Shown piece by piece: positions 29,443 through 61,957 of a DNA stretch of 64,000 nt. This DNA is from Hufsiella ginkgonis (GTDB taxonomy: Bacteria > Bacteroidota > Bacteroidia > Sphingobacteriales > Sphingobacteriaceae): the NCBI RefSeq assembly GCF_009834915.1, contig NZ_WVHS01000005.1, forward strand, positions 186,001-250,000. The letters run 5' to 3'. How positions within the stretch are numbered: the first letter of the stretch is position 1; each line of letters opens with the position of its first letter. A program made the translations under genes and the position numbers. The notes beneath the pieces are model-generated. The model saw only the letters and a list, made by a program, of their open reading frames with translations. It was not told the DNA's origin and made no database searches.

Positions 29443-29460
29443 CAGTCCAATTTAGTACAA

Positions 29461-30924: not shown

Positions 30925-30925
30925 A

Positions 30926-31002
30926 GGTTTAAAGTTTAAGGTTGCGGCTAACTGCGCTTTGTTAAGCTCCCGACCTAAAACCCCGAACCCCAAACCCTAA
31001 GC
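30926..31002. repeat. Imperfect intergenic inverted repeat (miaB / sigma-54 gene)
   Basis: The left side reads GGTTTAAAGTTTAAGGTTG and the right side CCCCGAACCCCAAACCCTAA; the reverse complement of the right arm repeats the same GGTTT/GGGTT pattern. The arms are only partly complementary. It looks like one of several decayed or variable intergenic inverted repeats in this window. Confidence 0.35.
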
Positions 31003-31013
31003 GCCAACTATAC

Positions 31014-45317: not shown

Positions 45318-46029
45318 TGGGCAATACATTAACAGGTTGCATGTTAAACAATACGAAAATATGCTGCAGCAAGATTTCTTTCACCTTGTTTATACCGGGA
45401 TCATGGCCCAGCTCGCGTGCCATCGACGTTACATCCTTATCATCGATCCCGCAGGGCACGATGTGTTTGAAGTAGCCGAGATCGGTGTTTACGTTAAAGG
45501 CAAACCCGTGCATGGTCACCCAGCGGCTGCAGCGCACGCCCATGGCACAGATCTTTCTTGCAGACGGTTTATCGGCATCTATCCATACGCCCGTATAACC
45601 CGGGTACCGGCCCGCCGTAATGCCAAAATCGGCGAGCGTGCGGATGATCGCCTCTTCGAGCGTACGCAGGTAGCGGTGAATATCGGTAAAAAAATTATCC
45701 AGGTCGAGAATAGGATAGCCCACTACCTGGCCAGGGCCATGGTAAGTGATATCGCCCCCCCGGTTAATCTTGTAGTAAGAAGCCCTTTTTTCGGCCAGCG
45801 CTTCCGGGGTAAGCAGTAAATTTCCCGGCTTCCCGCTTTTCCCGAGCGTATACACATGCGGATGCTCCGCAAAAACCAGGTAATTACTGGTAGGCAGGGC
45901 AATCGGCGCCGCCCGGTTGGCGATCTTTTGCTGCACCACCGCATCGAACAGCGCTTCCTGGCGATCCCATGCGGCCGCGTAATCAACCAGCCCCCAATCC
46001 GCTACCGTTACTTCCTTATTCTGTAACAT
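45280..46029 (-). CDS. lipB: Lipoyl(octanoyl) transferase
   Basis: Transfers octanoate from acyl carrier protein to lipoyl domains of dehydrogenases, the first step of lipoate synthesis. It has 249 residues. Motifs: NRGGDITYHGPGQVVGYPIL, the catalytic lysine in SARKICAMGVR, and the thioester cysteine in HIVPCGIDDKD. The C-terminal ~20 residues overlap the GDSL gene. lipA is not in the window. It overlaps the phosphopantetheinyl transferase gene by 14 bases. Confidence 0.95.
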   Translation of the reverse strand: MLQNKEVTVADWGLVDYAAAWDRQEALFDAVVQQKIANRAAPIALPTSNYLVFAEHPHVYTLGKSGKPGNLLLTPEALAEKRASYYKINRGGDITYHGPGQVVGYPILDLDNFFTDIHRYLRTLEEAIIRTLADFGITAGRYPGYTGVWIDADKPSARKICAMGVRCSRWVTMHGFAFNVNTDLGYFKHIVPCGIDDKDVTSMARELGHDPGINKVKEILLQHIFVLFNMQPVNVLPNDETMAHLLPGS

Positions 46030-46654
46030 AACCGATCATATAATCATGAAAACGCTCGTAGTGGATCACATAACGGCTGGCAGATCCCGGTAACACCAGC
46101 GAGGCGTTAAATGAGCCCGCATCACTGCTGGTAAAGGGATCGAGCCTGATATCTTTCAAAAACGAGATCCCGCTTTTTCCGTGTAATTTATAGATGGCTT
46201 CCTTGGCGCACCAGCAGATGTACAAATGTTCCACCTGCTTGCCGGGCTCTATAAAGGAGAGCTCCCTGCGTGTGAGGAACTTGCCCGCTACCCGCGTGAT
46301 CTTGGTCTTTACCAGCTCTATATCGATCCCCACGCCCTTGTTCTCGCTGATCATCACCGCCGCATAGTCATACGAATGGCTCAGCGAGATCTGGTGCGGG
46401 AAATTAACCAGGTAAGGCTTGCCGTGCTCATCGGCCTGGCAATCGATGTACTGGCTGGTGCTCAGCATCTTGCGGAGCAGCACACGGGTACTTAGCCAAT
46501 GCAGGTTACGCTTCCCGTTATTGAGCGTTTCCAGGTAGGCTTGTTCATGCGCTTTTAGCTGCAGCTGCTGATACAGTTCTTCGGCCGTCTCTTCAATTTT
46601 CCATACGGCAAATGCCGTCTTTTCATCCAGCTGCTTACGATACACCAATGCCAT
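46016..46654 (-). CDS. 4'-phosphopantetheinyl transferase superfamily protein
   Basis: Transfers the phosphopantetheine arm from CoA to carrier proteins. The 212-residue length suits the Sfp/AcpT two-domain type more than AcpS. Motifs: GVGIDIELVKTKI (Mg-binding Asp/Glu) and WCAKEAIYKLHGK, with FLTRRELSF between them. It starts the operon, about 20 bases after a -7 box, and overlaps lipB, which also uses acyl carrier protein. Confidence 0.9.
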   Translation of the reverse strand: MALVYRKQLDEKTAFAVWKIEETAEELYQQLQLKAHEQAYLETLNNGKRNLHWLSTRVLLRKMLSTSQYIDCQADEHGKPYLVNFPHQISLSHSYDYAAVMISENKGVGIDIELVKTKITRVAGKFLTRRELSFIEPGKQVEHLYICWCAKEAIYKLHGKSGISFLKDIRLDPFTSSDAGSFNASLVLPGSASRYVIHYERFHDYMIGYVTE

Positions 46655-46673
46655 GCTCTCTGTTAAATGCCTG

Positions 46674-46681
46674 CAAAATTA
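46674..46681 (-). promoter_or_regulatory. -7 box of the PPTase-lipB operon
   Basis: The minus strand reads TAATTTTG followed by CAGG, an exact -7 match 19 bases before the ATG at 46654. No TTG at the -33 position. It likely drives the PPTase, lipB and GDSL genes. Confidence 0.5.
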
Positions 46682-46716
46682 TCGTAAATTATTCTACTTT
46701 TAGCATGAGGGCCGGA

Positions 46717-46903
46717 CGTTAGACGTTTTACGTTTTACGTACTTGCATAACGGCTATTATCGCCGGGTAAAAGAGCAACCGCCCAGTCTTAAAAATATTA
46801 AATTAATAACCACGTATTCATCAGTAAGCGAAAAAACAGGTATCTTACTACAACCCGTCAATTCTTCTGCCGTATGAAACGTACTACGTACAACGCCTAA
46901 CGA
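46717..46903. repeat. Long imperfect inverted repeat between PPTase and dcd
   Basis: Left arm 46717-46740 and right arm about 46880-46903 share, in inverted order, the words CGTTAG, CGTT, TACGT and TACGT with single or double mismatches between them. The arms are themselves made of direct repeats (CGTTTTACGTTTTACGT). About 140 bases of A/T-rich sequence lie between them. No ORF is supported here. Role unknown. Confidence 0.5.
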
Positions 46904-46912
46904 CCTATTGAA

Positions 46913-47449
46913 ATGATCCTTTCCGACAAACGCATTCTCGAAGAAATTGATAAGGGTACCATTATCATCGAGCCGTTTAACCGCGAGTGCCTTGGCACCA
47001 ACTCCTATGATGTACACCTCGGCAAATACCTGGCCACTTATAAAAGCCGCGTGCTGGATGCCAAAGCACATAACGAGATCGACCATTTCGAGATCCCCAA
47101 AGAAGGGTTCGTGCTGCAGCCCGGCACACTCTATCTCGGCGTAACACGCGAATACACCGAAACACATGCCCACGTGCCGTTCCTGGAAGGGAAATCGAGC
47201 ACCGGCAGGCTAGGTATAGACATCCACGCCACGGCCGGCAAGGGCGATGTAGGGTTCTGCAACACCTGGACACTGGAGATCTCCGTTGCACAATGTGTGC
47301 GTGTGTATGCCGGCATGCCAATCGGTCAGCTGATCTATTTCGCCGTAGATGGCGAAGTGGAGGTAATGTACAATACTAAAGGCAACGCCAAGTACAGCAA
47401 TAAAACCACGCGGCCCGTAGAAAGCATGATGTGGAAGAACATTTTCTAG
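46913..47449 (+). CDS. dcd: dCTP deaminase
   Basis: Deaminates dCTP to dUTP, feeding dTMP synthesis. It has 178 residues. The start MILSDKRILEEIDKGTIIIE, EGKSSTGRLGIDIHATAG (nucleotide binding) and GFCNTWTLEIS with the catalytic glutamate are all present. A few Dcd proteins also hydrolyse dUTP; that cannot be decided here. It is transcribed away from the PPTase operon. Confidence 0.95.
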   Translation: MILSDKRILEEIDKGTIIIEPFNRECLGTNSYDVHLGKYLATYKSRVLDAKAHNEIDHFEIPKEGFVLQPGTLYLGVTREYTETHAHVPFLEGKSSTGRLGIDIHATAGKGDVGFCNTWTLEISVAQCVRVYAGMPIGQLIYFAVDGEVEVMYNTKGNAKYSNKTTRPVESMMWKNIF

Positions 47450-47508
47450 GGGTTTCTGCGTTATAACATTGAACTATTCCTTCTTTTAAGAAGACCATAT
47501 TATTTATT

Positions 47509-50226
47509 ATGATGAAGCTAAAATATACCCTCGTGGCAGTGGTGTCGCTCTCGCTGCTTACGCTCGGGTTCGCCCTGCGCGAAGACGAGCCGCTGAAGAC
47601 GCTGCTTTCCAGGCTCGAGAAATTCCGGGTAGACTTCCCGCAGGAGAAAGTGCACCTGCACCTCGATAAGCCTTACTATTCCATCGGCGACACGATCTGG
47701 TTCAAGGCCTACGTGGTTGATGCGGAAAAGAACCACATCACCGGGCTCAGCAAGATCCTCTACGTCGACCTGATCAATGATAAAGACTCGATCAAGCAGT
47801 CGCTGCGGCTGCCGCTCATAGCGGGCGGCCTGGGTTGGGGAGATTTCAGCCTCTCCGACAGCCTGCGCGAAGGCAGCTACCGCATTCGTGCATATACCAC
47901 CTGGATGCGTAACTTCGGGGAAGAGTACTATTTCGACAAGACGATAAGCATTGGCAACGTGTTCTCGAACACGATTCTCACAAAGGCGGACTATACTTTC
48001 ACCAAAATTGGTAACAATGAAAAAGTAGACGCTACCATCAATTATACCGACCTGGGAGGTAAGCCGGTAGCGAATAAAATCGTAACCTACGAGGTAGAGC
48101 TCGATCTCCGCAGTATTTCCCGCGGCACGGGCACCACCGATGCCAACGGCGACCTGAAAGTATCGTTCGTAAACAACCAGCCGTTCCTCCTAAAAGCCGG
48201 CAAGATCAATACTCACCTGAAAATGGACGAAAAGAACCTCGTTAATAAAACGGTACAGGTAAAGTCCACCTCTGATAAAGCGGATGTACAATTCTTCCCC
48301 GAAGGGGGACAGCTGGTGGACAGCGTGCGCTCGCGGGTTGGCTTTAAAGCGGCGGGGCCCGACGGGTTAGGCATCGTGATCGGCGGGACGATCACCGACA
48401 AAAACAACGAAACCGTGGCCGAGATCAAAACCGAACATGCCGGTATGGGGGTTTTTACACTTACCCCGGTAGCCGGTAATACCTATACCGCCAATGTCAG
48501 GTTCCCGGACGGCTCGGAAAAAAAGGTCCCCCTGCCGCGGGCCGTAAGTGAAGGATACGTGCTTAGTGTGAACACGATCGACCCCGAAAACCTGGGCGTA
48601 CGCATCTCGGCCAGCCGCAGTAAGCTGGCGGAAAAAGAAGTGACGCTCGTAGCCCAAAGCAACGGCGTAGTAAAATATGTATCGAAATCCATGCTGAGTA
48701 CACCGGTGCTTACCGCGAAGATCCCGAAGAGCCGGTTCCAGGCGGGGATCGTTCAGTTCACCCTGTTCTCTGCCGCCAACCTGCCGCTGGCAGAACGACT
48801 CGTATTTATCCGTGGCAACGACCAGCTCAGCATCGGCCTTGCCGCTAATAAACCCGCTTATGCACGCCGGGAAAAAGTGACCATGGACCTCGACGTAAAA
48901 GGGCCCGACGGCAAGCCCGTGATCAGCAGCTTTTCGGTGGCGGTAACCAATGCTACCCGTGTACCGGTGGAAGAGGCCAAAGAAAACACCATCTTCTCCG
49001 ACCTGCTGCTTACCTCCGACATCCGCGGGTACGTCGAAGAACCCAACTATTACTTTATGGAACCGGTAGCCGAAAAAGACAAGCACCTCGATAACCTGAT
49101 GCTGATCCAGGGATGGCGCCGCTTTACCTGGAAGAACATCCTGGCGAACGTGTATCCCAACATCACTTTTATGCCCGAACAGGGGATCAGCATTAGCGGC
49201 CGGGTAACCTCCACCAACGGCAAACCGCTTGCAGGCGGAAAAGTGACGGTATTCAGTACCTCCGGCGATGGCATGCTGCTGGATACCTTAACTGATGCCG
49301 AAGGAAAGTTCCACTTCAAAGACCTTGCCTTTACCGGTAAAACCAACTTCGTGATCCAGGCGCGCGACGCGAAGAACCGCAAAAATGTAGACATCGACCT
49401 CGACAGGATCCCGCCGCAGCTGGTTACTAAAAATAAAAACGCCGCTGATATCCAGGTAAATGTAACGCCGCTGATGCTCACCTACCTGAAAAGCCGGAAC
49501 GATGAGTTTGCCGAAATGCGTAAAAACGGGATGCTGCGGCGCTCCATCGTGTTAAACGAGGTAAAGGTATCTGAAAAGAAAAAGCCGGTAACAAATTCCA
49601 GCAACCTCAATGGCGCGGGCAACGCCGATGCCATTATTAAAGCCGAACAGCTGCAGACCTGCCAGACGCTTGCGCAATGCCTGCAGGGACGGGTAGCGGG
49701 GCTGATCATCCAGAACGGTATCGCCTACCTTACCCGGGCGATGAACAGCTCGTTCCAGGGCCCGGTGCCTATGCAGCTGATAGTAGATGGCATATACCAG
49801 CAGCCTGATATGCTTTCGATCATCAACCCGAATGATGTGGAAACCATCGAGGTACTAAAAAGCGCGGGCAACACCGCCATTTATGGGATAAACGGCGGCG
49901 GGGGCGTACTCATTATCACTACCAAACGCGGCGGCTCAAACCTCGACTATACCAAGTTCGCACCGGGTATTACCAGCTATTCGCCGCTCGGCTATTACCT
50001 GGGCCGCGCGTTTTACTCGCCCAATTATGAGAACCCGGAGACGAACACCCGCCTTCCGGATGTGCGGTCCACCATCTATTGGAACCCGCATGTAGTGACC
50101 AACGAGGGCAAAGCGAAACTTGAATTTTACACCTCCGACGGAGCCGGCACCTATCGCACGGTAGTGGAAGGGTTAAGCCAGGATGGTAAGCTGGGCCGCA
50201 AAGTGCTCTATTACACCGTAAAATAA
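47509..50226 (+). CDS. Macroglobulin-domain / TonB-plug envelope protein without beta-barrel
   Basis: A 905-residue exported protein; signal peptide at 1-23. Residues ~45-150 resemble an alpha-2-macroglobulin MG2 domain (EKVHLHLDKPYYSIGDTIWF), followed by further beta-sandwich repeats. Near residue 559 begins a carboxypeptidase-regulatory-like domain (ISISGRVTSTNGKPLAGGKV), and at ~705-809 a TonB-dependent receptor plug (QLQTCQTLAQCLQGRVAGLI, NPNDVETIEVLKSAGNTAIY, GGGGVLIITTKRGG). Only ~95 residues remain, so the 22-strand barrel is absent. It probably works at the outer membrane with a partner. Met2 is an alternative start. Confidence 0.82.
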   Translation: MMKLKYTLVAVVSLSLLTLGFALREDEPLKTLLSRLEKFRVDFPQEKVHLHLDKPYYSIGDTIWFKAYVVDAEKNHITGLSKILYVDLINDKDSIKQSLRLPLIAGGLGWGDFSLSDSLREGSYRIRAYTTWMRNFGEEYYFDKTISIGNVFSNTILTKADYTFTKIGNNEKVDATINYTDLGGKPVANKIVTYEVELDLRSISRGTGTTDANGDLKVSFVNNQPFLLKAGKINTHLKMDEKNLVNKTVQVKSTSDKADVQFFPEGGQLVDSVRSRVGFKAAGPDGLGIVIGGTITDKNNETVAEIKTEHAGMGVFTLTPVAGNTYTANVRFPDGSEKKVPLPRAVSEGYVLSVNTIDPENLGVRISASRSKLAEKEVTLVAQSNGVVKYVSKSMLSTPVLTAKIPKSRFQAGIVQFTLFSAANLPLAERLVFIRGNDQLSIGLAANKPAYARREKVTMDLDVKGPDGKPVISSFSVAVTNATRVPVEEAKENTIFSDLLLTSDIRGYVEEPNYYFMEPVAEKDKHLDNLMLIQGWRRFTWKNILANVYPNITFMPEQGISISGRVTSTNGKPLAGGKVTVFSTSGDGMLLDTLTDAEGKFHFKDLAFTGKTNFVIQARDAKNRKNVDIDLDRIPPQLVTKNKNAADIQVNVTPLMLTYLKSRNDEFAEMRKNGMLRRSIVLNEVKVSEKKKPVTNSSNLNGAGNADAIIKAEQLQTCQTLAQCLQGRVAGLIIQNGIAYLTRAMNSSFQGPVPMQLIVDGIYQQPDMLSIINPNDVETIEVLKSAGNTAIYGINGGGGVLIITTKRGGSNLDYTKFAPGITSYSPLGYYLGRAFYSPNYENPETNTRLPDVRSTIYWNPHVVTNEGKAKLEFYTSDGAGTYRTVVEGLSQDGKLGRKVLYYTVK

Positions 50227-50234
50227 GCATCGCA

Positions 50235-51008
50235 ATGAACACCATCCGGGTAACACAGCGCGACAAGGTTGCGATAGTAACATTAGACCGCGGCCGCTCC
50301 AACGCCCTAAACGCCGAAATGTGCAGCGAGCTTAACACCATCTTCAGGGCCATCGAACAGGACGACCAGGTGCTGGGCGTGATTCTCACGGGCAAAGAGA
50401 ACTTCTTTTCCGCCGGGCTCGACCTGATCGAGCTTTACGATTATAACGAAGTACAGATTAAAGACTTCTGGAGCAGTTTCCTGGAGCTTACCCGCATGCT
50501 GGTTATGTTCAGGAAGCCCTTTGTAGCGGCCATTAACGGGCACGCGCCAGCCGGCGGATGTGTGCTGGCTATTTGCAGTGACTACCGCATCATGGTGGAT
50601 GGCAAGTATATTATCGGGCTTAATGAAGTGCCCGTGGGGATTATCGTCCCGGAAAGCATTTTCCAGCTATATGCGTTCTGGATCGGTTCGGGGCGCGCTT
50701 CACGTTTCCTGCTCGAAGGCAAGCTGATGAAGCCGGAGGAAGCGCTGCAGGCCGGCCTCGTAGATGAGCTGGTGCCCGAAGGCACGATCCTCACTTCCGC
50801 CGAACGGCAAATGAAAAAATATATCCAGCTCAATGCCGTCACCTGGCAGCAAAGCAAAATAAATATCCGGCGGGAACTGGTCGAAAAGATCTCCGCCGAT
50901 CAGTCGGCCATGCTCGATATCATGCTCAGGCAATGGTGGTCGCCTAATACCCGGTCAATCCTGCAAACCATTATCGGGAACCTTCGCCAGAAGGCGCCCG
51001 GAAGCTAA
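50235..51008 (+). CDS. Enoyl-CoA hydratase/isomerase family, ECI1-like
   Basis: A crotonase-fold enzyme of 257 residues. The run AAINGHAPAGGCVLAICSDY with RIMVDGKYIIGLNEVPVGI is closer to mitochondrial delta3,delta2-enoyl-CoA isomerase than to a hydratase; the single acidic residue in GLNE would be the catalytic Glu. It would shift double bonds in unsaturated fatty acids for beta-oxidation. It is followed 17 bases later by a dienoyl-CoA reductase-like gene. Confidence 0.85.
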   Translation: MNTIRVTQRDKVAIVTLDRGRSNALNAEMCSELNTIFRAIEQDDQVLGVILTGKENFFSAGLDLIELYDYNEVQIKDFWSSFLELTRMLVMFRKPFVAAINGHAPAGGCVLAICSDYRIMVDGKYIIGLNEVPVGIIVPESIFQLYAFWIGSGRASRFLLEGKLMKPEEALQAGLVDELVPEGTILTSAERQMKKYIQLNAVTWQQSKINIRRELVEKISADQSAMLDIMLRQWWSPNTRSILQTIIGNLRQKAPGS

Positions 51009-51025
51009 CTGATAAACCACACGTT

Positions 51026-51901
51026 ATGGAACCCATTACAGGTATGCTGCGCGACAACGCTTTGCAGGGAAGAACGATCATTATTACCGGCGGCGGCACA
51101 GGTCTCGGCAGGTCGATGGGCACTTATTTCCTTGAGTTGGGCGCCAATCTGGTGATCACCAGCCGAAAACTCGACGTGCTCGTAAAAGCGGCCGCCGAAA
51201 TGGAGCAGGCAACCGGCGGAAAAGTACTTCCCCTTGCCTGTGATGTACGGGATTATGATCAGGTACAACAGGTAATCGCCAAAACGCTCGAACAATTCGG
51301 CACCATACACGCCCTGGTAAACAACGCGGCAGGTAACTTTATATCGCCTACGGAGCGGCTGTCGGCCAATGCCTTCGGCGCCATTATCGATATCGTGCTG
51401 AAAGGCACCGCCAACTGTACGCTCGCCACCGGCAAACATTGGATAGCGGCTAAACAGCCCGGGACTATCCTGAACATTATCACTACCTACGCTTTTACCG
51501 GGTCGGGGTATGTGGTACCTTCGGCCTGCGCCAAAGGCGGCGTATTGGCGTTAACCAGGTCGCTGGCCGTTGAATGGGGCAAATACGGCATCCGCACCAA
51601 TGCCATCGCACCCGGCCCCTTTCCCACTAAAGGCGCATGGGAACGGCTGCTGCCCGGCGATATGGCAAAACAGTTCGACTTTAAACACCGGGTACCTCTT
51701 AAACGCACCGGCGAGCACCAGGAACTGGCCAACCTGGCGGCTTTCCTGGTATCCGACTTTTCCGGTTACGTGAACGGGGAAGTGATCACCATCGACGGTG
51801 GTGAATGGCTGCAGGGCGCAGGCCAGTTCAACGGGCTGGAAGCGATCCCCGACGAACTATGGGACGGATTGGAAAAGATGACAAGAGCCGCGAAAAGTTA
51901 A
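51026..51901 (+). CDS. SDR oxidoreductase, 2,4-dienoyl-CoA reductase-like
   Basis: A short-chain dehydrogenase of 291 residues. The NADP site is TGGGTGLGRSMGTYF with ITSRKLDVL; VNNAAGNFISPTERLS, ITTYAFTGSGYVVPSACAKG (Tyr, then Ser-x3-Lys) and LAVEWGKYGIRTNAIAPGPF follow. By recall these segments align closely with human mitochondrial DECR1. It would reduce 2,4-dienoyl-CoA so that polyunsaturated chains can be oxidised. It forms an operon with the isomerase upstream. Confidence 0.87.
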   Translation: MEPITGMLRDNALQGRTIIITGGGTGLGRSMGTYFLELGANLVITSRKLDVLVKAAAEMEQATGGKVLPLACDVRDYDQVQQVIAKTLEQFGTIHALVNNAAGNFISPTERLSANAFGAIIDIVLKGTANCTLATGKHWIAAKQPGTILNIITTYAFTGSGYVVPSACAKGGVLALTRSLAVEWGKYGIRTNAIAPGPFPTKGAWERLLPGDMAKQFDFKHRVPLKRTGEHQELANLAAFLVSDFSGYVNGEVITIDGGEWLQGAGQFNGLEAIPDELWDGLEKMTRAAKS

Positions 51902-51941
51902 CCTTTACTTTATCAACACTTTACTTTCCTGTTATTTCCCT

Positions 51942-51949
51942 TATTTTTG
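51942..51949 (+). promoter_or_regulatory. -7 box 4 bases before clpS
   Basis: TATTTTTG is an exact TAnnTTTG match that ends four bases before the clpS ATG (51954), the same spacing as at the RDD gene. No TTG at -33. The mRNA would be leaderless or nearly so. Confidence 0.5.
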
Positions 51950-51953
51950 TGTT

Positions 51954-52250
51954 ATGAACACCCGCTTTGCCGATACCCAGGTAGAAGAACAAACATTAAC
52001 TATAGAAGAGATTCTTTCGGCGTTAAAAACCACCCATCGCCTTATTTTATGGAACGATGACGTGAATACTTTCGATCATGTGATCTATTGTATGGTCAAA
52101 TACCTCGACTACAGCGAGAGCCAGGGTGAAAAGATCGCCTGGAAAGTACATAACGAAGGAAAGTGCGATATCCTCGAGGGATCATTTACCGAGCTGGAAG
52201 TGTACCGGAAAATCCTCCAGCAAGAGGGATTAACGGTATCGGTGGACTAA
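51954..52250 (+). CDS. clpS: ATP-dependent Clp protease adaptor ClpS
   Basis: The N-recognin that hands N-end-rule substrates to ClpA/ClpC. It has 98 residues with a short unstructured N-terminus. The hallmark HRLILWNDDVNTFDHVIYCM contains the Asn-Asp pair that binds the substrate amino group; the C-terminal half has KIAWKVHNEGKCDILEGSF. It stands alone on the plus strand with its own promoter box, and a palindrome CATGCCGGCATG follows the stop. Confidence 0.95.
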   Translation: MNTRFADTQVEEQTLTIEEILSALKTTHRLILWNDDVNTFDHVIYCMVKYLDYSESQGEKIAWKVHNEGKCDILEGSFTELEVYRKILQQEGLTVSVD

Positions 52251-52289
52251 CATGCCGGCATGCTAAACTGCCTGTTTTACACCCACGCG

Positions 52290-53117
52290 CTATTCCCTGA
52301 ACGTATCCCCTTGCTTAATGTCGCCAGTTTCAAACCCCTTCCTGAACCAGTAGACGCGTTGTGCGGAAGTACCATGGGTAAACGAGTCCGGGGTTACCTG
52401 CCCGCCGGATTGTTTTTGCAGGCGATCGTCGCCGATGGCATTAGCCGCATTCAGCGCTTCTTCGATATCGCCGGCTTCGAGAATGTTCCACTTTTGCTGC
52501 GCATGATGCGCCCACACGCCGGCATAAAAATCAGCCTGCAGCTCGAGTTTCACCGAAAGCTTGTTGTACTCAGTTTCGCTTAATCGACTGCGCAGGGCGT
52601 CGACCTTGTCCGTGGTACCCATCAGGTGCTGCACGTGGTGACCCACTTCATGTGCGATCACATACGCATTGGCGAAATCGCCGCCGGCGCCAAAACGTTC
52701 AGATAGTTCGTTAAAAAAAGAATAATCGAGGTACACCTTCGAATCGGCGGGGCAATAGAACGGGCCGGTAGCGGAGCTGGCAAACCCGCAGGCCGCCTGG
52801 GTAGAATTGCGGAACAGTACCACCGTCGGCTTTTCGTACGCCGAGCCATTTTCACGGAAGATCTCTGTCCATACCTCTTCCGTGTAACCAAGCACCTGCG
52901 ACACGAACTGGTATTCCTTGTCTATTACTGGGGCGCTTGCTTCAGCCTGTTCGGTGCCGGAGCCCTGTATCTGCTCCATGATCTGGCCGGGATCTTTTCC
53001 AAAGATCAATCCAAGAATGAGGGCGATCACGGCAGCGCCGCCGCCCAATGCAAATTTACCGCCCCCACCGCTCCTGCGGTCTTCAATATTGCCACTGCCG
53101 TTTCCTAACCAACGCAT
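52290..53117 (-). CDS. Neutral zinc metallopeptidase (YpfJ family)
   Basis: A membrane-anchored metallopeptidase-like protein of 275 residues. After a Gly-rich start there is one helix (FALGGGAAVIALILGLIFGK), a linker, and the catalytic-type domain with YVIAHEVGHHVQHLMG (HExxH) and a later glutamate in LELQADFYAGVWA. The arrangement RWLGNGSGNIEDRRSGGGG at the N-terminus is typical of the family. Substrate unknown. It converges with clpS. Confidence 0.9.
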   Translation of the reverse strand: MRWLGNGSGNIEDRRSGGGGKFALGGGAAVIALILGLIFGKDPGQIMEQIQGSGTEQAEASAPVIDKEYQFVSQVLGYTEEVWTEIFRENGSAYEKPTVVLFRNSTQAACGFASSATGPFYCPADSKVYLDYSFFNELSERFGAGGDFANAYVIAHEVGHHVQHLMGTTDKVDALRSRLSETEYNKLSVKLELQADFYAGVWAHHAQQKWNILEAGDIEEALNAANAIGDDRLQKQSGGQVTPDSFTHGTSAQRVYWFRKGFETGDIKQGDTFRE

Positions 53118-53173
53118 AGTTTACTGGTTTTATGGTGGTTCAACAGGGGAAAAGGAAACTTGTTTGGGGCGCC

Positions 53174-53268
53174 CAGTTATGAGTGATCAGTAATCAGTTC
53201 CTATCCCTAGTTAGCAGCGCTTACAAGGTGATAGGAACTGACTACCGGATACTGACTACTGACAACTG
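53174..53268. repeat. Imperfect inverted repeat between uxaC and the peptidase gene
   Basis: An 11-bp perfect stem CAGTTCCTATC / GATAGGAACTG (53195-53205 with 53230-53240) is extended outwards by partly matching arms made of repeated CAGT and TCAGTA words. It abuts the uxaC stop at 53269. There is no U-run. It could be a transcript-end or mRNA-stability structure. Confidence 0.5.
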
Positions 53269-54675
53269 CTACTTCCCAAACCCAAAATAATCCTTAGCGT
53301 TATTATAGCAGATATCTTCGATGATCTTGCCAAGCCATGCGATATCTCCGGGCAATTCGCCGTTCTCTACATCCCTTCCAAAAAGATTACAAAGGATGCG
53401 GCGGAAATATTCATGCCGCGGGAAAGACAGGAAGCTCCTTGAATCCGTAAGCATCCCTACCATCCGGCTTACCAGGCCCATGTTCGAAAGTACGTTCAGC
53501 TGGCTCTCCATGCCGTCTTTCTGATCGAGGAACCACCAACCGGAGCCATACTGGATCTTGCCGGCCACGGAGCCGTCGTTGAAGTTGCCGATCATGGTAG
53601 CCATCAGCTCATTATCAGCCGGGTTGAGGTTGTATATGATGGTTTTTGCCAGCTGGTCGCTATTGTCAAGCCGGTTCAGGAATTTCGAAAGCTGGCGTGC
53701 CTGGCTAAAGTCGCCGATAGAGTCCCAGCCGGTATCAGGACCCAGCGTACGCAGCATCCTTGCATTATTGTTGCGCAGCGCACCGAGGTGATATTGCTGA
53801 ACCCAGCCTTTTTCATGGTCCCAGGTAGCGAAATGGATCAGCATAGCCGACTTGAACTTCAGCACTTCGGTATATGACAGGGACTGGCCATTGCGGATCT
53901 TTGCAAAGATCTCCCGTACTTCTTCATCGGTGTAGTCTTCCGCGTAGATTTGCTCCAGCCCGTGATCGGATACTTTACAACCATTCCTGGCGAAGTAATC
54001 GTGACGCAATTTAAGCGCGTCCAGGTAGCTGTCGATGTCGGTGATGGTTACGCCGGTCACTTCGCTCACCTTATCGATATATACGTTAAGCCCGGGGAGG
54101 TCGTCTGCGTTCATCGCCTTATCGGGACGAAACGCCGGAAGTACCAGGATGTCACAGTTATCGGCCGCCACGGCCTGGTGATGTTCCAGCGTGTCGATGG
54201 GATCGTCGGTCGTACAAACGGCCTCTACGTTCATCTTGCGGAGCAGGCCGCGCACAGAATAATCGCGGGTATGCAGCCGCGACGAACACTCGTCGTACAC
54301 CGCCTTTGCGTTTCTTCCCGAAAGGATATCGTTTACCCCGAAATAACGCCTCAGCTCGAGGTGCGTCCAGTGGTACAGCGGGTTACGCATGGTATAGGGA
54401 ACCGTCTCCGCCCATTTCTGGAACTTCTCGAAATCGGTTTTCGAACCGGTAATATAGGCTTCGTCTACACCGTTCGTGCGCATGGCGCGCCACTTATAGT
54501 GATCGCCGGCAAGCCAAACCTGGCTCATATTTTCGAAATTGATGTCTTTTGCAATCTGCTCCGGGATCAGGTGGTTGTGGTAATCAATGATAGGCATCGA
54601 CTTGGCAAAATAATGGTAAAGCCTTTCTGCTGTCGCGTTTTGCAGCAAAAAATTGTCATCTAGGAATGCTTTCAT
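53269..54675 (-). CDS. uxaC: Glucuronate/galacturonate isomerase
   Basis: Converts D-galacturonate to D-tagaturonate (and glucuronate to fructuronate). It has 468 residues from ATG 54675 (MKAFLDDNFLLQNATAERLY); the longer frame to 54822 runs into intergenic sequence. The metal-site motif is MPIIDYHNHLIPEQIAKDI and further conserved parts are HFATWDHEKGW and GSGWWFLDQKDGM. It is the last of three contiguous uxa genes. Confidence 0.95.
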   Translation of the reverse strand: MKAFLDDNFLLQNATAERLYHYFAKSMPIIDYHNHLIPEQIAKDINFENMSQVWLAGDHYKWRAMRTNGVDEAYITGSKTDFEKFQKWAETVPYTMRNPLYHWTHLELRRYFGVNDILSGRNAKAVYDECSSRLHTRDYSVRGLLRKMNVEAVCTTDDPIDTLEHHQAVAADNCDILVLPAFRPDKAMNADDLPGLNVYIDKVSEVTGVTITDIDSYLDALKLRHDYFARNGCKVSDHGLEQIYAEDYTDEEVREIFAKIRNGQSLSYTEVLKFKSAMLIHFATWDHEKGWVQQYHLGALRNNNARMLRTLGPDTGWDSIGDFSQARQLSKFLNRLDNSDQLAKTIIYNLNPADNELMATMIGNFNDGSVAGKIQYGSGWWFLDQKDGMESQLNVLSNMGLVSRMVGMLTDSRSFLSFPRHEYFRRILCNLFGRDVENGELPGDIAWLGKIIEDICYNNAKDYFGFGK

Positions 54676-54736
54676 GTAATACTTTTCTTTTAATGCTGGT
54701 TGGAAGTTGGAGGTTCGAAGCCCGAATAACGTTCTG

Positions 54737-56389
54737 CTATAGTGAGACGCCGCGTTTCCAGGGGATAAAATCGTCCTGTCCGTGCCGTACCGAAGCCACC
54801 TGTATTTCGCCGCTGGCAACACCTATCACATAATCCAGGATCCGTTCCCCGGCCTGTTCGATGGTCTCATCGCCTTCAATGATCGATCCCGTATCCAGGT
54901 CGATGATATCGTTCATCTTGTTATATAATTTCGTATTGCTCGACAGTTTTACCACCGGTGTGATCGGGTTGCCGGTGGGTGTGCCGAGACCCGTAGTGAA
55001 CAGCACCACGTTTGCGCCCGAGGCTACCTCTGCGGTAGTCGATTCCACGTCGTTCCCGGGTGTACACAACAGGTTCAAACCGGGTTTGGTTACTTTTTCG
55101 GGGTAGTCGAGGATAGCCGTTACGGGGGAGGTTCCCCCCTTTTTAGCGGCGCCGGCCGATTTAATGGCATCGGTGATCAGCCCGTCCTTGATATTTCCCG
55201 GTGAGGGGTTCATATCAAAACCCGAACCTACCGCCATTGCGCGCTCATTATACGTTTTCATGAGATACCTGAACCGGTCGGCGCTTTCGGTATCCACACA
55301 GCGGTCGCTCAGGTTTTGTTCTACGCCGCAAAGCTCGGGGAACTCGGCCAGGATCACCGATCCGCCAAGGGCGATGAGCAGATCGGACGTGTACCCGATC
55401 GCCGGGTTGGCAGAGATCCCGGAGAACCCGTCGGACCCGCCGCATTCCAGCCCGATACAGATCTTGCTCAGCGGGGCAGGTTTACGTGTATTTTCATTTG
55501 CCCGGATCAAGCCGGCAAAGGTTTGTTTAATGGCCTGGGAAAGCAGCTCGGCTTCCGTTCCTGTCTTCTGCTGATCGAGAATGTACAGCGGTTTGCTGAA
55601 AGCCGGGTCGCGTTTAGCGATCTCTTCTTCGAGTATAGATACCTGCGCGTTCTGGCAGCCAAGGCTCAGCACGGTAGCGCCCGCCACATTGGGATGCGTG
55701 ATATATCCTGCCAAAAGCCCGCATAATGCCTGCGCGTCCTGGCGTGTACCGCCGCATCCGCCGGCATGGGTAAGGAACTTAATGCCATCGATATTCGGGA
55801 AAAGCCGGTCTTTGGCCGGAATGGTATCCGGGGAATCGATCTCGGTATACAGGATCTCTTCTATGCCGCTTCCTGATTTGTACATATCGATAAGCGCGCG
55901 TGCCTGGTTTTCGTATTTCTTGTTGCGGCCATAACCAAGTTGGGTCACCAGGGCTTCCTGGAGCACCTGCAGGTTACGGTTCTCACAAAACACCATCGGT
56001 ATCACCAGCCAGTAATTGCCGGTCCCCACGGATCCGTCGGCACGGTGGTAGCCGTTAAAGGTGCGCCCCGCCCATTTCGATACATCGGGCATCTGCCAGC
56101 TGGTATGGCGCTCACCCGTGATAAAATCGCTGGCGGCGTGTTTGACGTTCCTGATGGATAACAAGCCACCTTCGGCGATATCCGTTTCGGATTTCCCCAC
56201 CAATACGCCGTACATGATGATCTCGGTACCAGCGGGTAAGGGAACCGCCGCAAACTTATGTTTCGCTTCAACAAATTCGGGGAGAATGTATTGTTTCCCC
56301 TCGTAGCTCACTTGCTCACCTGCCTCAAGGTTAGTTAAGGCAACTATCACATTATCGTCCTTATGAACTTTTAACACTTTCTGCTTCAT
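54737..56389 (-). CDS. uxaA: Altronate dehydratase
   Basis: Dehydrates D-altronate to 2-keto-3-deoxygluconate with an iron cofactor. It has 550 residues from ATG 56389. The N-terminal ~95 residues form the SAF-type domain (KVHKDDNVIVALTNLEAGEQ). The main domain has HAGGCGGTRQDAQALCGLLA, VLSLGCQNAQVS, GLECGGSDGFSGISANPAIG and the GLGTPTGNPITP end. Longer readings start in an intergenic inverted repeat. It is between uxaB and uxaC. Confidence 0.95.
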   Translation of the reverse strand: MKQKVLKVHKDDNVIVALTNLEAGEQVSYEGKQYILPEFVEAKHKFAAVPLPAGTEIIMYGVLVGKSETDIAEGGLLSIRNVKHAASDFITGERHTSWQMPDVSKWAGRTFNGYHRADGSVGTGNYWLVIPMVFCENRNLQVLQEALVTQLGYGRNKKYENQARALIDMYKSGSGIEEILYTEIDSPDTIPAKDRLFPNIDGIKFLTHAGGCGGTRQDAQALCGLLAGYITHPNVAGATVLSLGCQNAQVSILEEEIAKRDPAFSKPLYILDQQKTGTEAELLSQAIKQTFAGLIRANENTRKPAPLSKICIGLECGGSDGFSGISANPAIGYTSDLLIALGGSVILAEFPELCGVEQNLSDRCVDTESADRFRYLMKTYNERAMAVGSGFDMNPSPGNIKDGLITDAIKSAGAAKKGGTSPVTAILDYPEKVTKPGLNLLCTPGNDVESTTAEVASGANVVLFTTGLGTPTGNPITPVVKLSSNTKLYNKMNDIIDLDTGSIIEGDETIEQAGERILDYVIGVASGEIQVASVRHGQDDFIPWKRGVSL

Positions 56390-56405
56390 CTCCTTGGTTT
56401 TACTA

Positions 56406-56509
56406 GGCGCTTTAGGTTGGACGTTTAAAGCCTGGATGCTTACCCGTGGCACAGCTAAGCCCGCGGACTTACAACATAGAACGCCGGACGTCCCACCCTA
56501 ACCAGCGCT
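56406..56509. repeat. Imperfect inverted repeat upstream of uxaA
   Basis: The left arm GGCGCTTTAGGTTGGACGT (56406-56424) pairs imperfectly with the right arm at 56488-56509, sharing GCGCT, TTAGG and GGACGT in inverted order. It fills most of the 143-base uxaB-uxaA gap. No promoter box is evident inside. Confidence 0.4.
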
Positions 56510-56532
56510 AAATATACTGCATTCCTCACCTA

Positions 56533-58044
56533 TTATGCTACAACCGATTTAAGGTCATTTAGCACTGATATTATCCCTTTAGTCATCATAGTTAGCATTT
56601 TACGGGTTACAGACGCTTCAAAGCCCGGCAACAACGTAAGATCGGTATCCCATAAAGCCCGGTCCGACAATACTTTCGCGGCGATCTCCCCGGGGCCGGC
56701 ATGCTTCCAGGCTTGTGATAGCACGGCCGCCTGGTCGTCGGTAATGCGGTACTCCCGGCCGTTGGCCGAACCGAAGTACTGGTCGCCGTTTTCCTGTTCC
56801 GATTTCATGAACAACAGGTACGCAGCGAAGCCTGCGGCAATATGTTCGGGCACTTCTTCCGAGTGCTTGTAATGGTTAAGTAATACCGGCAGCACCCGCA
56901 TTTTCAATTTTGCCGAAAACTGGGCGGTAATGGCCAGCCACAGGTGTTCGATATGGGGGTTCCTGAACCGGTCGAGCACCTTTGCGGCAAAACCCTTCGC
57001 CTCCTGTTCGTTCACCTGGTAAGGAATAGCAGGTGCGATCTCCTGCAGCATCAGGCTGGAAACGAAAGCAGCCATCGCCTCATTGTCCATGGCATTTTTC
57101 ACGGTATCGAATCCCGCGAGGAAAGCGATACCACAGCTGAGGGTATGTGTGCCGTTCAGCATGCGCAGCTTCAGCTCCCGGAAGATCTCGATATCCGGCG
57201 CGATCACCACACCGGGATCGGCCTGGGAGAAGGCGAGCGTTTCGCGTACTTTTTCACCGCCTTCTATCGCCCATAGGCGATATGCCTCGGAAACGATCAC
57301 GAGGTCGTCGCGGTAACCCAGCTCCCTTTCCAGCGTATCGATGGTAGCCCCGTCGGGCTTACCCGGTACGATCCTGTCTACTAAGGAATTACAAAAAACA
57401 ATGTGTTTATCTAGCCATTGCATGAATCCGTCGGGGAGTCCGTTCAGTACGGCCAGCCTGGTCACAATGTCTTTCAGCTTTTTCCCGTTATCGATGATGA
57501 GCTCGGTCGGCACGATCACCATGCCGCTTTCCTCACTTCCGTGGAAGGCCTCGTAACGGGCCGCGAGGAAGGCGAGCAGCTTACCCGGGAATGAGCGCGG
57601 CGGCTGGTCACCAACGCGGTCGGTATCCAGCAACTGGATGCCTACTTCGGTGGTATTGGAGATCACCACTTTCATTTCCGGGTTTTTCGCGCAGGCCAGG
57701 ATCGCTTGCCAGTCGCCCGATGCGGCAAGCACCCGGCTGATGGACGCGTTGATCATGATCTCGTCTACCTTCTCGTTGTTCTCGATACCCTTAATGGCGT
57801 GTGTAAAAAGGCCGTCCTGGTCGTCAAACCCGGACGCGCCACCGGTACCGGTCGACTTAACCACCACGATCCGGCCATTAAAGATCCCCTGGCGGTTAGC
57901 TTTATCGATAAAATAATCAGGCAAGCCTCTTAATAAAACTCCGGTGCCAAACTGCAGCACTTTTTCAGGCAGCTGGAATAACGATTCTTGCGGGACTAAA
58001 TGCTGTGTTTTTACCCGTCCCAGGGACTCACGTGAAAGGATCAT
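56533..58044 (-). CDS. uxaB: Tagaturonate reductase (altronate oxidoreductase)
   Basis: Reduces D-tagaturonate to D-altronate with NADH; a mannitol-dehydrogenase-family enzyme of 503 residues. The Rossmann start reads QFGTGVLLRGLPDYFIDKAN, followed by the NAD region GGASGFDDQDG and the core RMLNGTHTLSCGIAFLAGFD. The frame starts 9 bases after the GH105 stop. Fructuronate reductase (UxuB) is a close relative, but the presence of uxaA supports UxaB. Confidence 0.92.
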   Translation of the reverse strand: MILSRESLGRVKTQHLVPQESLFQLPEKVLQFGTGVLLRGLPDYFIDKANRQGIFNGRIVVVKSTGTGGASGFDDQDGLFTHAIKGIENNEKVDEIMINASISRVLAASGDWQAILACAKNPEMKVVISNTTEVGIQLLDTDRVGDQPPRSFPGKLLAFLAARYEAFHGSEESGMVIVPTELIIDNGKKLKDIVTRLAVLNGLPDGFMQWLDKHIVFCNSLVDRIVPGKPDGATIDTLERELGYRDDLVIVSEAYRLWAIEGGEKVRETLAFSQADPGVVIAPDIEIFRELKLRMLNGTHTLSCGIAFLAGFDTVKNAMDNEAMAAFVSSLMLQEIAPAIPYQVNEQEAKGFAAKVLDRFRNPHIEHLWLAITAQFSAKLKMRVLPVLLNHYKHSEEVPEHIAAGFAAYLLFMKSEQENGDQYFGSANGREYRITDDQAAVLSQAWKHAGPGEIAAKVLSDRALWDTDLTLLPGFEASVTRKMLTMMTKGIISVLNDLKSVVA

Positions 58045-58053
58045 CTATCTCTG

Positions 58054-59967
58054 TTATTTTGTTTTCGGCGCCACCTGCTTCACCAGCCATTTGGCGAAGT
58101 CGTTTGCTGCCTTATAATTTTCGAAGCTTGCCGGCAGTTTCCGGCCGTCTACATATTCGTTATAGAACCAGGGATCACCGACGGCGATTACCGTACCTTT
58201 GCCATATTTTGCGGTAGCGGCAACCACATCGCCTTTATGGGTAAGCGCTGCTTTGGCGGTGCCGCTTAAGCGGAGGGAGGAAAATTCCTTGATGTACACT
58301 TTCCTGGCGGAGGTAAAGACCGGGTTACCGGCCGGGATAGCGATCGCGCCCATTTCGAACTCGCTGCCGGTCACTTTATTCTTGCTGTCTTCATTAAAGT
58401 GAATGCCGAAGGTTTCGGCCAGCTGGTTAAAATGGGTAAATTCTGCGTTGCCCGCATCATTGCCAAGCAGTACGAGCACTCCCCCTGCATTTACCCAATC
58501 GGCGATCGCTTTTGTATGTGCAGGCTCAACGAAGTTCGGCTTTGGCGATTCTTTTTCCGTGTCGGGGTCTACAATGAGGTAGATGTCGGTCCATTTCAGG
58601 TTGGCTGCATCAGGCGCATTGTGGCGGGTGAACAAGGAGGCACCTGTTTGGGTGAACGCTTGCGCCAGGAAATCATATCCATTGTTATCACGTTCTTCCC
58701 ACAGGTAATGGAAAGGCTCGGAATTGCCCGTAGCCGGCTCCTTGTGTACTTCGTTGTTAAAATAAGAGTCGAGCGCTACCCGAACGCCTTTTCCTGTTTT
58801 TGGCGTGGCGGCCAGCTCCATCTCGTTGGAGGCAAGGATCAGTGCGCCCACGCCTTTTGGATCGTTGGTGATCACCTTCTCCCTCATGTAATATTCGTAG
58901 CTTCCGTCGCGGTAAGGGTTCCCGCCAAGGCCCGAAACGCTTACGGTACCTTTCAGGTTCACCTTACCGGGGCCGCGTACTTCGATAAACTCTTTGTTGA
59001 TGCCCGCATATCCTTTTTGTGCGATGGGAAATGCCGATGCCGGCAGGTAGCCTTTGCGTACGCCCTTGGAAACGGTGTATACGAACATGCAGGCAGCCGA
59101 CGCTTCATGGTAGTTTCCTTTGCCGGTGGGTTTATCCAGCACGTCGTACCAAAGGCCGCTTTTTACCTCCTGCACACTTTTAATGGCGGCGGTTAAACGG
59201 GTCAATATGTCGATAAGGTCTTTTCTTTTCGGATGCTCAGCGGGGAAGTAGTCGAGCACATCCACCAGCGCCATGCCGTACCAGCCCATGGCCCTGCCCC
59301 AGAAGTTGGGCGAGTTACCGGTCGTTTTATCCGCCCATTGCTGTGCTTTCGATTCATCCCAGCCATGGTACAGCAGGCCTGTTTTCGGATCGCGGGCATG
59401 CTTTTCCATGTAGATGAACTGGTTGGCGATGTCGTCAAATACGAAATCGTTTTTTGTCAGCGCGGCGTATTCCGCGTAAAAGGGCTCGCCCATATACAGG
59501 CCGTCGAGCCACATCTGGTAAGGATAGACCTTTTTATGCCAGAACCCGCCCTCGTTGGTGCGCGGCTGCTTTTTCAGTTGTTCCCAAAGGGTGTTTGCCG
59601 CTTTCAGGTACTTCTCCTGGCCGGTTACTTTATAAAGCGTGATCAGCGAGCGGCCGTTCTTTACGTTGTCGATGTTAAAATCTTCCTGTTTATAACTTGC
59701 GATATTTCCCTCTTTATCCACATAATGATCCATAGAGTGCTGGATATAACGGAAATACTCCGGGTTGGCAGTGCGTTTCCAGATGCCGTCGATCCCTTCC
59801 AGGATCACTCCCTGGTCGTACGACCATTTGACGGTTTTGCCGGGCGTAAATACCAAGGAGTCCTTCCAGATATCCATCACGGTAGCCGCCATCTTTTCCG
59901 AGAGGGATTGGGCATAAGAAAACCCGCTGCCCGTTACCAGGAGCGCGAGTGTTAATAATCTTTTCAT
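58054..59967 (-). CDS. GH105 unsaturated uronyl hydrolase with C-terminal DUF4350-like domain
   Basis: Removes 4,5-unsaturated galacturonate from pectin fragments. It has 637 residues from ATG 59967 with a signal peptide (MKRLLTLALLVTGSGFSYAQ). The (alpha/alpha)6 domain at ~30-380 shows WGRAMGWYGMALVDVLDYFP and GNYHEASAACMFVYTVSKG. Residues ~400-637 form a second, DUF4350/GATase-like domain (ADWVNAGGVLVLLGNDAGNA, YGKGTVIAVGDPWFYNEYV). Whether it prefers rhamnogalacturonan or polygalacturonate products cannot be told. Confidence 0.88.
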   Translation of the reverse strand: MKRLLTLALLVTGSGFSYAQSLSEKMAATVMDIWKDSLVFTPGKTVKWSYDQGVILEGIDGIWKRTANPEYFRYIQHSMDHYVDKEGNIASYKQEDFNIDNVKNGRSLITLYKVTGQEKYLKAANTLWEQLKKQPRTNEGGFWHKKVYPYQMWLDGLYMGEPFYAEYAALTKNDFVFDDIANQFIYMEKHARDPKTGLLYHGWDESKAQQWADKTTGNSPNFWGRAMGWYGMALVDVLDYFPAEHPKRKDLIDILTRLTAAIKSVQEVKSGLWYDVLDKPTGKGNYHEASAACMFVYTVSKGVRKGYLPASAFPIAQKGYAGINKEFIEVRGPGKVNLKGTVSVSGLGGNPYRDGSYEYYMREKVITNDPKGVGALILASNEMELAATPKTGKGVRVALDSYFNNEVHKEPATGNSEPFHYLWEERDNNGYDFLAQAFTQTGASLFTRHNAPDAANLKWTDIYLIVDPDTEKESPKPNFVEPAHTKAIADWVNAGGVLVLLGNDAGNAEFTHFNQLAETFGIHFNEDSKNKVTGSEFEMGAIAIPAGNPVFTSARKVYIKEFSSLRLSGTAKAALTHKGDVVAATAKYGKGTVIAVGDPWFYNEYVDGRKLPASFENYKAANDFAKWLVKQVAPKTK

Positions 59968-59987
59968 CGGTTGGTTAATTATGGTCA

Positions 59988-61667: not shown

Positions 61668-61863
61668 TGCCGGCAGATTATTAGAACTTAGATCAATATT
61701 GAACGTTGCGGCACGGTTAAAAGTGTCGGAATAAGCTTGTCAGCCTCGTTTGGTTAGCCATCCTGACTGGCAATTTTAAACAGTTTACGCTTAAAAAAAC
61801 CGTTTTGACCCAAAAATATTCACGCAATCGTTCCCGGAAAACCTTAGCGATCCATACAGCACA

Positions 61864-61935
61864 AAGCGGAGAGCCGAAAGCAAAGCGACTGTTAACTTGT
61901 GTTGGCAGTCGCTTTGTGCTTTCGGCTCTCCGCTT
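61864..61935. repeat. Near-perfect 28/30-base inverted repeat upstream of GH28
   Basis: The arms 61864-61891 and 61906-61935 are reverse complements over 28 bases, with one extra dinucleotide in the right arm; AAGCGGAGAGCCGAAAGC is identical in both readings. A 14-base loop separates them. It lies 22 bases after the kduI stop and about 200 bases before the GH28 start. It has no U-run on the minus strand, so it may be an RNA-processing, stabilising or protein-binding structure rather than a simple terminator. Confidence 0.8.
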
Positions 61936-61957
61936 AAACGCTTGTACCTTTTACCGG

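Follow-up and report, generated by a model that had tools for sequence, protein, structure and literature searches.

The window, i.e. the whole stretch of 64,000 nucleotides analysed here, comes from Hufsiella ginkgonis (Bacteroidota, Sphingobacteriaceae; contig NZ_WVHS01000005.1, positions 186,001 to 250,000), and several gaps between its genes are filled by two arms facing each other. The genes flanking these arm-filled gaps are all ordinary, namely those for a MiaB-like radical-SAM protein and a sigma-54 activator around 30914-31007, for a 4'-phosphopantetheinyl transferase and a dCTP deaminase around the gap 46655-46912, for a zinc peptidase and a glucuronate isomerase around 53174-53268 and, as a further pair, for an altronate dehydratase and a member of the mannitol-dehydrogenase family. 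The structure, hereafter the heptad palindrome, consists of two inverted arms, each a tandem series of 7-base units, and both arms are built on one word. The features of the window, in its own coordinates, are the following:

30914-30943: left heptads of the GGTTTAA type, which begin inside the final codons of the gene for the MiaB-like radical-SAM protein (29347-30924)
30979-31007: right heptads, AACCCCN / AACCCTA, stopping 6 nt short of the sigma-54 activator gene (31014)
46655-46710, minus strand: promoter-like segment, the older part of the gap, belonging to the leftward 4'-phosphopantetheinyl transferase gene
46714-46740: left arm, ACGTNNN heptads (GGACGTT AGACGTT TTACGTT TTACGT)
46879-46905: right arm, inverted ACGTNNN word (ACGTACT ACGTACA ACGCCTA ACGACC)
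53174-53205: left arm, NNTCAGT heptads, terminating in the apex stem TTCCTATC
53230-53268: right arm of ACTGANN heptads, directly adjoining the glucuronate isomerase gene (53269-54822, minus strand) at its stop end
56406-56509: weak inverted repeat whose ends are of the ACGT type (AGGTTGGACGTT)
61864-61935: palindrome whose perfect arms measure 19 bp, with an inner 16-bp pair (88%)
46714-46905, 53174-53268, 56406-56509 and 61864-61935: arms free of terminator-like sites

Each locus was set against dinucleotide shuffles, 300 for the gapped arm-to-arm score and then 1000 for the best period-7 tract. A preliminary description of this DNA had listed 30926-31002, 46717-46903, 53174-53268 and 56406-56509 as inverted repeats, which stands beyond shuffles for the second and the third of them. 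At 46717-46903, the arm score of 16 was reached in 0/300 shuffles and the period-7 tract in 1/1000; with the limits set at 46714-46740 and 46879-46905, the inverted-repeat score is 17, and the stretch 46715-46740 holds a 7-tract scoring 15. At 53174-53268, where the arms are 75% complementary in the inverted-repeat search of the window, an arm score of 19 was matched in 0/300 shuffles and the period-7 tract in 0/1000. At 30926-31002 the arms pair no better than expected by chance (score 7, reached in 171/300 shuffles), and it is the repetition of GGTTTAA-type words that is significant there (period-7 tract in 1/1000; 7-tract scores of 13 at 30914-30943 and 12 at 30979-31007). The repeat at 56406-56509 is unconvincing alone, neither its arm score of 9 (28/300) nor its period 7 (133/1000) being significant, and the word repetition previously pointed out at 1237-1417 is weak (period-7 tract in 66/1000, arm score of 10 in 16/300). 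No other perfect arms in the inverted-repeat scan of the window are as long as those of the palindrome at 61864-61935, which is absent from the preliminary description; its right arm reads GCTTTGT GCTTTCG GCTCTCC GCT, i.e. GCTYTNN heptads, and the stretch 61860-61940 gives an arm score of 23 (0/300) and a period-7 tract reached in 5/1000 shuffles.

Beyond the window, the sample of the genome comprised 2.859 Mb of 5.208 Mb, with gaps defined by a simple ORF rule; inverted repeats were counted in 1001 gaps of 60-400 bp and periods in 1453 gaps. The earlier idea of one form with differing sequence is borne out at this scale, in excess of shuffled DNA: an inverted-repeat score of 16 was reached in 39/1001 gaps, 32 of these 39 containing a 7-tract, where dinucleotide shuffles give 0.4 on average and halves taken from different gaps 1.6. 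At score 12 the count was 88 gaps versus 10.6 (shuffles) and 12.2 (cross-gap halves), and the enrichment over both controls, a check that the preliminary description had proposed against shuffled sequence, is present at every threshold tried from 10 to 20. Direct half-to-half matches are also present (11 at score 16, 31 at score 12). Regarding the period, tracts scoring 12 or more in the 1453 gaps number 131 at lag 7 and 98 at lag 14, and from 1 to 10 at each of the lags 4-6, 8-13, 15 and 16, while the same-base rate in host gaps is 0.2786 at lag 7, 0.2753 at lag 14 and 0.2763 at lag 21, and 0.255-0.270 elsewhere, save for lag 3 (0.2792). Sets of three RCTGA units are spaced by 7 in 259 instances and by 14 in 116, and never by 5, 6 or 8-13. 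The period belongs to the gaps: of the lag-7 tracts scoring 10 or more, 150 kb of gaps contain 114 and 1.43 Mb of coding sequence 15.

The sequence of these repeats had been regarded as unrelated from locus to locus, and the arms do differ between loci, but their words recur with a 7-base period (ACGTNNN and RCTGANN arrays), and the RCTGANN, AACGTNN and AATAGRR words recur genome-wide, i.e. as families rather than unrelated sequence. In this genome, ACGTNNN repeated four times gave 19 hits in 17 separate arrays, and its reversed control 0; RCTGANN repeated four times gave 122/125 hits, and its control 0/1, this control pattern matching some other genomes (e.g. G088, 4/38). RCTGANN arrays combine a conserved core with free bases. 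A rule of five fixed and two adjacent free positions for every word is not supported, holding for CTGA words of the host (adjacent in 39 cases, not adjacent in 24, tied in 24) but not for viral CTGA words nor clearly for others, the counts being 51, 61 and 46 for viral CTGA words and, for other words, 11 adjacent vs 15 not in the host and 18 vs 15 in viruses. At C1:19181-19300 and in the L245 gap near 1842, inverted arms of GCAAAGNCG-like words look about 9-periodic rather than 7-periodic.

The viral sequences come from an IMG/VR scan for a two-armed ACTGA pattern, which returned 117 stretches and, being pattern-selected, gives no general viral frequency. In both host and viral gaps the order of the two arrays is inverted. 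Host gaps with two separate 7-tracts (n=38) comprise 36 inverted, 0 direct and 2 ambiguous cases, and viral gaps with two tracts (n=48) 41 inverted, 1 direct and 6 ambiguous. When gaps were split at the apex instead, 38 host and 107 viral gaps were inverted and 24 and 16 came out as direct, the latter being taken as single arrays cut in two. The inverted similarity of the arms is 0.73-0.74 within the same gap and 0.44-0.47 between different gaps, host and viral. Among mixed neighbours, TCAGY stands on the left and RCTGA on the right in 11 vs 0 and 10 vs 0 cases for two CTGA words, in a listing that also contains 3 RR and 4 LL pairs of host arrays; for ACGT words the order is 4 vs 1, with one of each overlapping. 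Words other than CTGA almost always have their G-richer strand directed inward from each gene edge, the GC skew of the inward-running strand being positive in 11/11 host and 20/22 viral pairs; for CTGA pairs it is positive in 16 and negative in 10 host cases (n=27; weak), and in 70 and 13 viral ones.

Plain replication slippage of 7-base simple repeats, with the polymerase footprint setting the unit and the palindrome having no role, would account for 7-base steps in unit number and for the free bases that, by eye, appear homogenised separately within one arm of the viral locus L251. It leaves unexplained an inverted second array with the identical word (36:0 host, 41:1 viral) as well as the inward G-strand, and is held here to be improbable. 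A footprint favouring slippage by 7 bases is cited as a hypothesis in the relevant passages of Rehm (2015; PMC4692102). In L251, at 6410-6676 and 7681-7939, blocks of AAAGGC repeats are nested within ACTGA arms, as if the words had been added from the centre.

How far one arm is a copy of the other was assessed on 44 RCTGANN elements, including nine copies of the MITE described below and two overlapping pairs. Between the two arms, the A/G base of RCTGA is the same in 0.912 of 147 unit pairs (random elements 0.509, same-type elements 0.931), and the two free bases match the own partner arm at 0.408 vs 0.399 for other elements. In a permutation test of this free-base mirroring in RCTGANN, 88/500 permutations reach the observed value. 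Since the A/G base is shared and the free bases are not mirrored, the word is common to the arms and its filling is not copied; template switching, put forward in the preliminary description, is thus not supported as a general means of arm copying. In arms of the purine type (AATAGRR) free-base mirroring is weak (21/500 permutations reach the value), and a few loci are mirrored throughout both arms, which leaves room for rare arm copying. In two places, near-perfect long GCTGATA arrays stand opposite a short mixed-unit arm (C12, about 810015-810124, and C1, ending at about 852859; 15 and 13 units).

The same free bases bear on RNA structure, which had likewise been suggested as the selected property. 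Hairpins selected in RNA could serve transcription punctuation, mRNA processing or protection, or act as translational leaders, and such selection would predict G.U in excess of A.C on the sense strand. The counts, 75 vs 87 in the host and 120 vs 190 in viruses, do not support it, and the G.U shares of 0.46 (host) and 0.39 (viral) compare with 0.49 and 0.43 in a control shifted by 7 positions either way. No compensatory or wobble retention between arms was seen, the comparison being one of arms of different loci rather than of an orthologous series. On this wobble test and on the mirror test of the RCTGANN free bases, RNA structure selection was rejected as a candidate. Within 46000-62000, none of the 19 sites resembling an intrinsic terminator (a GC-rich hairpin and a T run) lies on arms, and no Rfam match at gathering score falls on arms within the window. 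The sole Rfam match in the window at this score is a SAM-II riboswitch at 18853-18914.

In favour of RNA hairpins stands the position of the arrays against start and stop codons. Among arrays of at least three units, 22/57 end within 10 nt of a start and 25/41 within 10 nt of a stop, with about 10% expected under uniform placement, in counts that leave out 17 MITE-type arrays, 19 arrays inside ORFs and arrays of fewer than three units; insertion into originally short gaps would give the same placement. Inverted repeats scoring 12 or more with a 7-tract are also rarer in divergent gaps, with 5/291 vs 18/254, 20/314 and 8/142 in the others, and a translational role has been proposed for TAACTGA repeats in one organism in the part of MacGregor (2015; PMC4679880) concerned. 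However, some heptad palindromes do sit in divergent gaps and, in the viral contig L281, they separate the major head gene from the major tail gene; together with G.U not being favoured, the unmirrored free bases and the arms devoid of terminator-like sites in 46000-62000, this makes RNA hairpins unlikely as the reason for these palindromes.

One GCTGA-type element of the genome was found in ten copies, 83-98% identical to the query copy and with sharp alignment borders; the nine complete ones measure 178-194 bp and carry imperfect terminal inverted repeats, GGATCARGCTKAA, with 11/13 bases in common. A target duplication of 8 bp is perfect in four of the nine, the others showing 7, 6, 5, 3 and 2 matches of 8, so that at least 6/8 is found in 6/9 copies against 1% in a cross-copy control (one chance pair of 320 bp being omitted). 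With both inverted ends and an 8-bp duplication, this family is a MITE. Its sites are distributed as follows:

Contigs C1 and C12 of this genome, e.g. C12:762347-762535: MITE family sites

The heptad arms lie just inside the ends of the element and, among copies with an alignable centre, one arm has 3-5 units, changing in steps of 7 bases. No transposase-sized stretch between GGATCARGCTKAA-type ends was found in 2.86 Mb of the genome. As for Y1/RAYT-type transposases (PF01797), 77/151 genomes of the family are positive and this genome has 0 matches, which rules against mobilisation of the palindromes by such enzymes.

A second sign of dispersal is found at the centre of RCTGA palindromes, where the apex comes near the palindromic sequence CCTTTATGGCGCCATAAAGG in 10/22 spacers (13 or more of 20, against 0.45% in shuffles); 10/21 strong matches to this 20-mer lie away from RCTGA words. 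Such a recurring apex points to the copying of ready-made elements. A GCGC apex common to all word types was considered and discarded, for it holds with RCTGA only (12/22 vs 3.5 in shuffles), the figures being 3/17 vs 3.8 with ACGT and 3/11 vs 1.6 with the purine type, the latter too few. The view that the palindromes are not one dispersed element is therefore right insofar as there are several families, but one of them is a dispersed MITE and another has a recurring apex.

From there, the heptad palindromes altogether may be several families of non-autonomous mobile elements, MITE- or foldback-like, with heptads as subterminal transposase sites and gaps as the sole tolerated targets. The reality of the MITE with heptad arms inside its ends and the apex of the RCTGA family argue for this, and so does the gap 46655-46912 when compared with relatives. 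The closest loci for one flanking protein are from Pedobacter-, Desertivirga- and Hufsiella-type Bacteroidota, at 67-71% identity in an orthologue search; in 31 Bacteroidota loci the orthologous gap measures 68-83 bp in 16/31 and 274 bp at most, against 258 bp here, and no heptad arms were seen by eye in these 31 gaps, the best inverted-repeat score being 12. The element is accordingly lineage-specific in this sample. By eye, the segment 46655-46710 resembles the gap of the relatives, and the additional length lies to its right. No plasmid matches to 46700-46912 were found. Against mobile elements, target duplications show no clear excess in the other heptad palindromes, including those of the window (n=71, with exact ends uncertain): end repeats of at least 7 nt occur in 8/71 7-periodic palindromes, two of the eight being the MITE, vs 8.7% for unrelated ends, and end repeats of at least 8 nt in 4/71, two of them again the MITE, vs 2.2%. 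By eye, no conserved terminal motif was seen outside the MITE, bar a degenerate last unit in some arrays (ACTCA, ACTAA, GCTAA), and no Y1 transposase was found in the genome. Transposases leave a period of 7 in unrelated words unexplained. Mobile elements come second among the readings, as a somewhat unlikely one.

Regarding the spread of the words, the gaps of 33 loci of relatives (17 kb) show no excess of the same-base rate at period 7; however, their tracts scoring 12 or more number 5 at lag 7 and 4 at lag 14, against 1-2 at each remaining lag, where every lag probably includes one tract that is a stretch of N, so that a few heptads are present there as well. RCTGANN repeated four times is found in 28/151 genomes of the family and 53/198 from the phylum, patchily and with a genome-specific filling. 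AACGTNN repeated four times occurs in 7/151 family genomes, all 7 of which also have RCTGANN arrays (4/7 belong to one genus and are not independent), and CTATTYY, also repeated four times, in 4 genomes, 2 of them with RCTGANN.

The palindromes are also carried by some viral contigs. Heptad arrays in inverted order occur in many gaps of L281, L251, L235 and other IMG/VR loci, with several words per contig. Over the 117 stretches, 7-tracts are present in 381/726 gaps and the same-base rate rises to 0.411 at lag 7, the values for lags 4-6 and 8-13 lying between 0.238 and 0.272; with 42/117 removed as redundant, the 75 remaining loci hold tracts of 10 or more in 224/492 gaps. Matches in PHROGs to a connector, a head maturation protease and the major proteins of head and tail mark L281 as a tailed phage, and 8/11 of its gaps have 7-tracts; L251 gave no named phage function in PHROGs, its protein 306-1838 having distant phage relatives. 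Besides ACTGA, viral words include GGGAATA, GGATTCA, AAGGGTG, GAATAGC and AGTAGGG.

In the homologous gap of L227 and L282, whose flanks are 95-98% identical, the words are different, as they are between L272 and L298 (flank identity 76-89%). Given different words between such closely similar flanks, an active process, as the preliminary description had proposed, is likely. In a set of 12 pairs hand-picked among 263 homologous ones, with some gaps counted more than once, the 22 non-aligning orthologous gaps have tracts on both sides in 4 cases, on one side in 12 and on neither in 6; a 7-mer common to both sides occurs in 0/4 of those with tracts on both. A search for filled and empty sites between close viral contigs gave three candidates, one of them near-clean, namely a palindrome-bearing stretch of about 145 bp that one contig has and its homologue lacks, in the gap of L306 aligned to L226 near 11155, immediately next to a start codon; this insert fits a mobile element equally well. 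No birth event was followed base by base. Viral mosaic recombination, for its part, could exchange the contents of gaps without any synthesis in place.

This turnover of words also bears on the reading that a DNA- or RNA-binding protein recognises the arrays by their sequence, the word being the site and the 7-base pitch the spacing of the protein. The core and free bases of RCTGANN, the word shared by the arms and the identical words found in several genera would suit such a protein. However, the many words per genome and their differences in homologous gaps would require many proteins, which makes this reading very improbable.

Considered as a class, the elements of the window belong to the known heptameric intergenic repeats, of which they represent a form with inverted arms and many words: they have exact 7-base tandem units, are intergenic near ORF ends and form convergent inverted pairs with the G-strand near the 5' ORF, this last trait being weak for the host CTGA words. 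The passages of Rehm (2015; PMC4692102) bearing on this describe GGGAATC in Xanthomonas and GGGGA(C/T)T in Nostoc/Anabaena as heptamers with fixed and free positions, in 2-26 units, mostly intergenic and near ORFs. There, GGGAATC forms 70 and 75 convergent inverted pairs with the G-strand nearer the 5' ORF, is scarce between divergent ORFs and varies in length and sequence between Xcc and Xac, and no role is reported in these passages (PMC4692102). The likeness extends to 7-base units, intergenic location, convergent inverted pairs and scarcity in divergent gaps; in the same passages, however, one G-rich word is described per genome, mainly in quadruplex studies, unlike the several words here, the arm-shared word tested against other loci and the differing words in homologous viral gaps. 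Repeats of TAACTGA, for which translational regulation is suggested in the part of MacGregor (2015; PMC4679880) devoted to them, occur in Beggiatoaceae, Cyanobacteria and some Bacteroidetes; TAACTGA is a rotated ACTGATA, i.e. an RCTGANN word, with the same pitch of 7 bases and an intergenic location often a few nt ahead of a start. That part describes them as direct repeats and gives just one inverted case for the main genome, whereas inverted pairs are the rule here. With SPADE, heptamers emerged as the most abundant intergenic tandem repeats in many prokaryotes, with no clue to function in the relevant passages (Mori, 2018; PMC6344855), which do not describe the inverted arrangement found in the present arms. 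In the open-licence PMC literature, searched by title and start of abstract, no word-matched inverted heptads with differing words in homologous gaps were found.

Other systems offer partial likenesses. One subfamily here has the traits of MITEs, its dispersed copies ending in terminal inverted repeats and being flanked by target duplications of 8 bp, unlike the other heptad palindromes, which have no detectable target duplications or fixed ends. Foldback elements are eukaryotic and build their long inverted arms, of variable length, from short tandem repeats; by this description their arms are similar, but their unit lengths differ from the 7-base units seen here. REP/REPIN-RAYT systems comprise many-copy intergenic palindromes, from which the present elements differ in that no Y1 transposase was found in this genome and in their periodic arms.

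The mirrored form and the turnover of words suggest building at the DNA level rather than a hairpin kept for its RNA. The reading favoured first, albeit tentatively, is that the heptad palindromes of the gaps are rebuilt in place at the DNA level at gene edges, and sometimes dispersed. Palindromes would be made and remade in place by a process that gains, loses and swaps 7-base units in both arms, candidate routes being slippage-like synthesis, or synthesis by extension of ends, where a palindrome has stalled or broken. A unit would persist by retaining the core bases for re-annealing, in which case the pairing of the arms in RNA would not be the selected target. Some palindromes would later spread as ordinary non-autonomous transposons, for which the 178-194 bp MITE alone gives proof.

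A more specific route, the least probable of all those considered here, is a telomere-like healing, whereby a double-strand break in the gap, in many cases where an older palindrome has its apex, would be followed by extension of both 3' ends with one 7-base word, mostly G-rich, by a template-jumping or telomerase-like polymerase, the ends then being joined head to head. If true, it would yield at once the fixed step of 7 bases, the word shared by the arms and the unmirrored free bases, along with the inward G-strand polarity, arrays starting from the last codons of genes and the differing words of relatives. Word-matched inverted arms, a word that can change between homologous gaps under a constant form, and the presence of such arms in many gaps of some viral contigs together render the question of intergenic heptamers testable.
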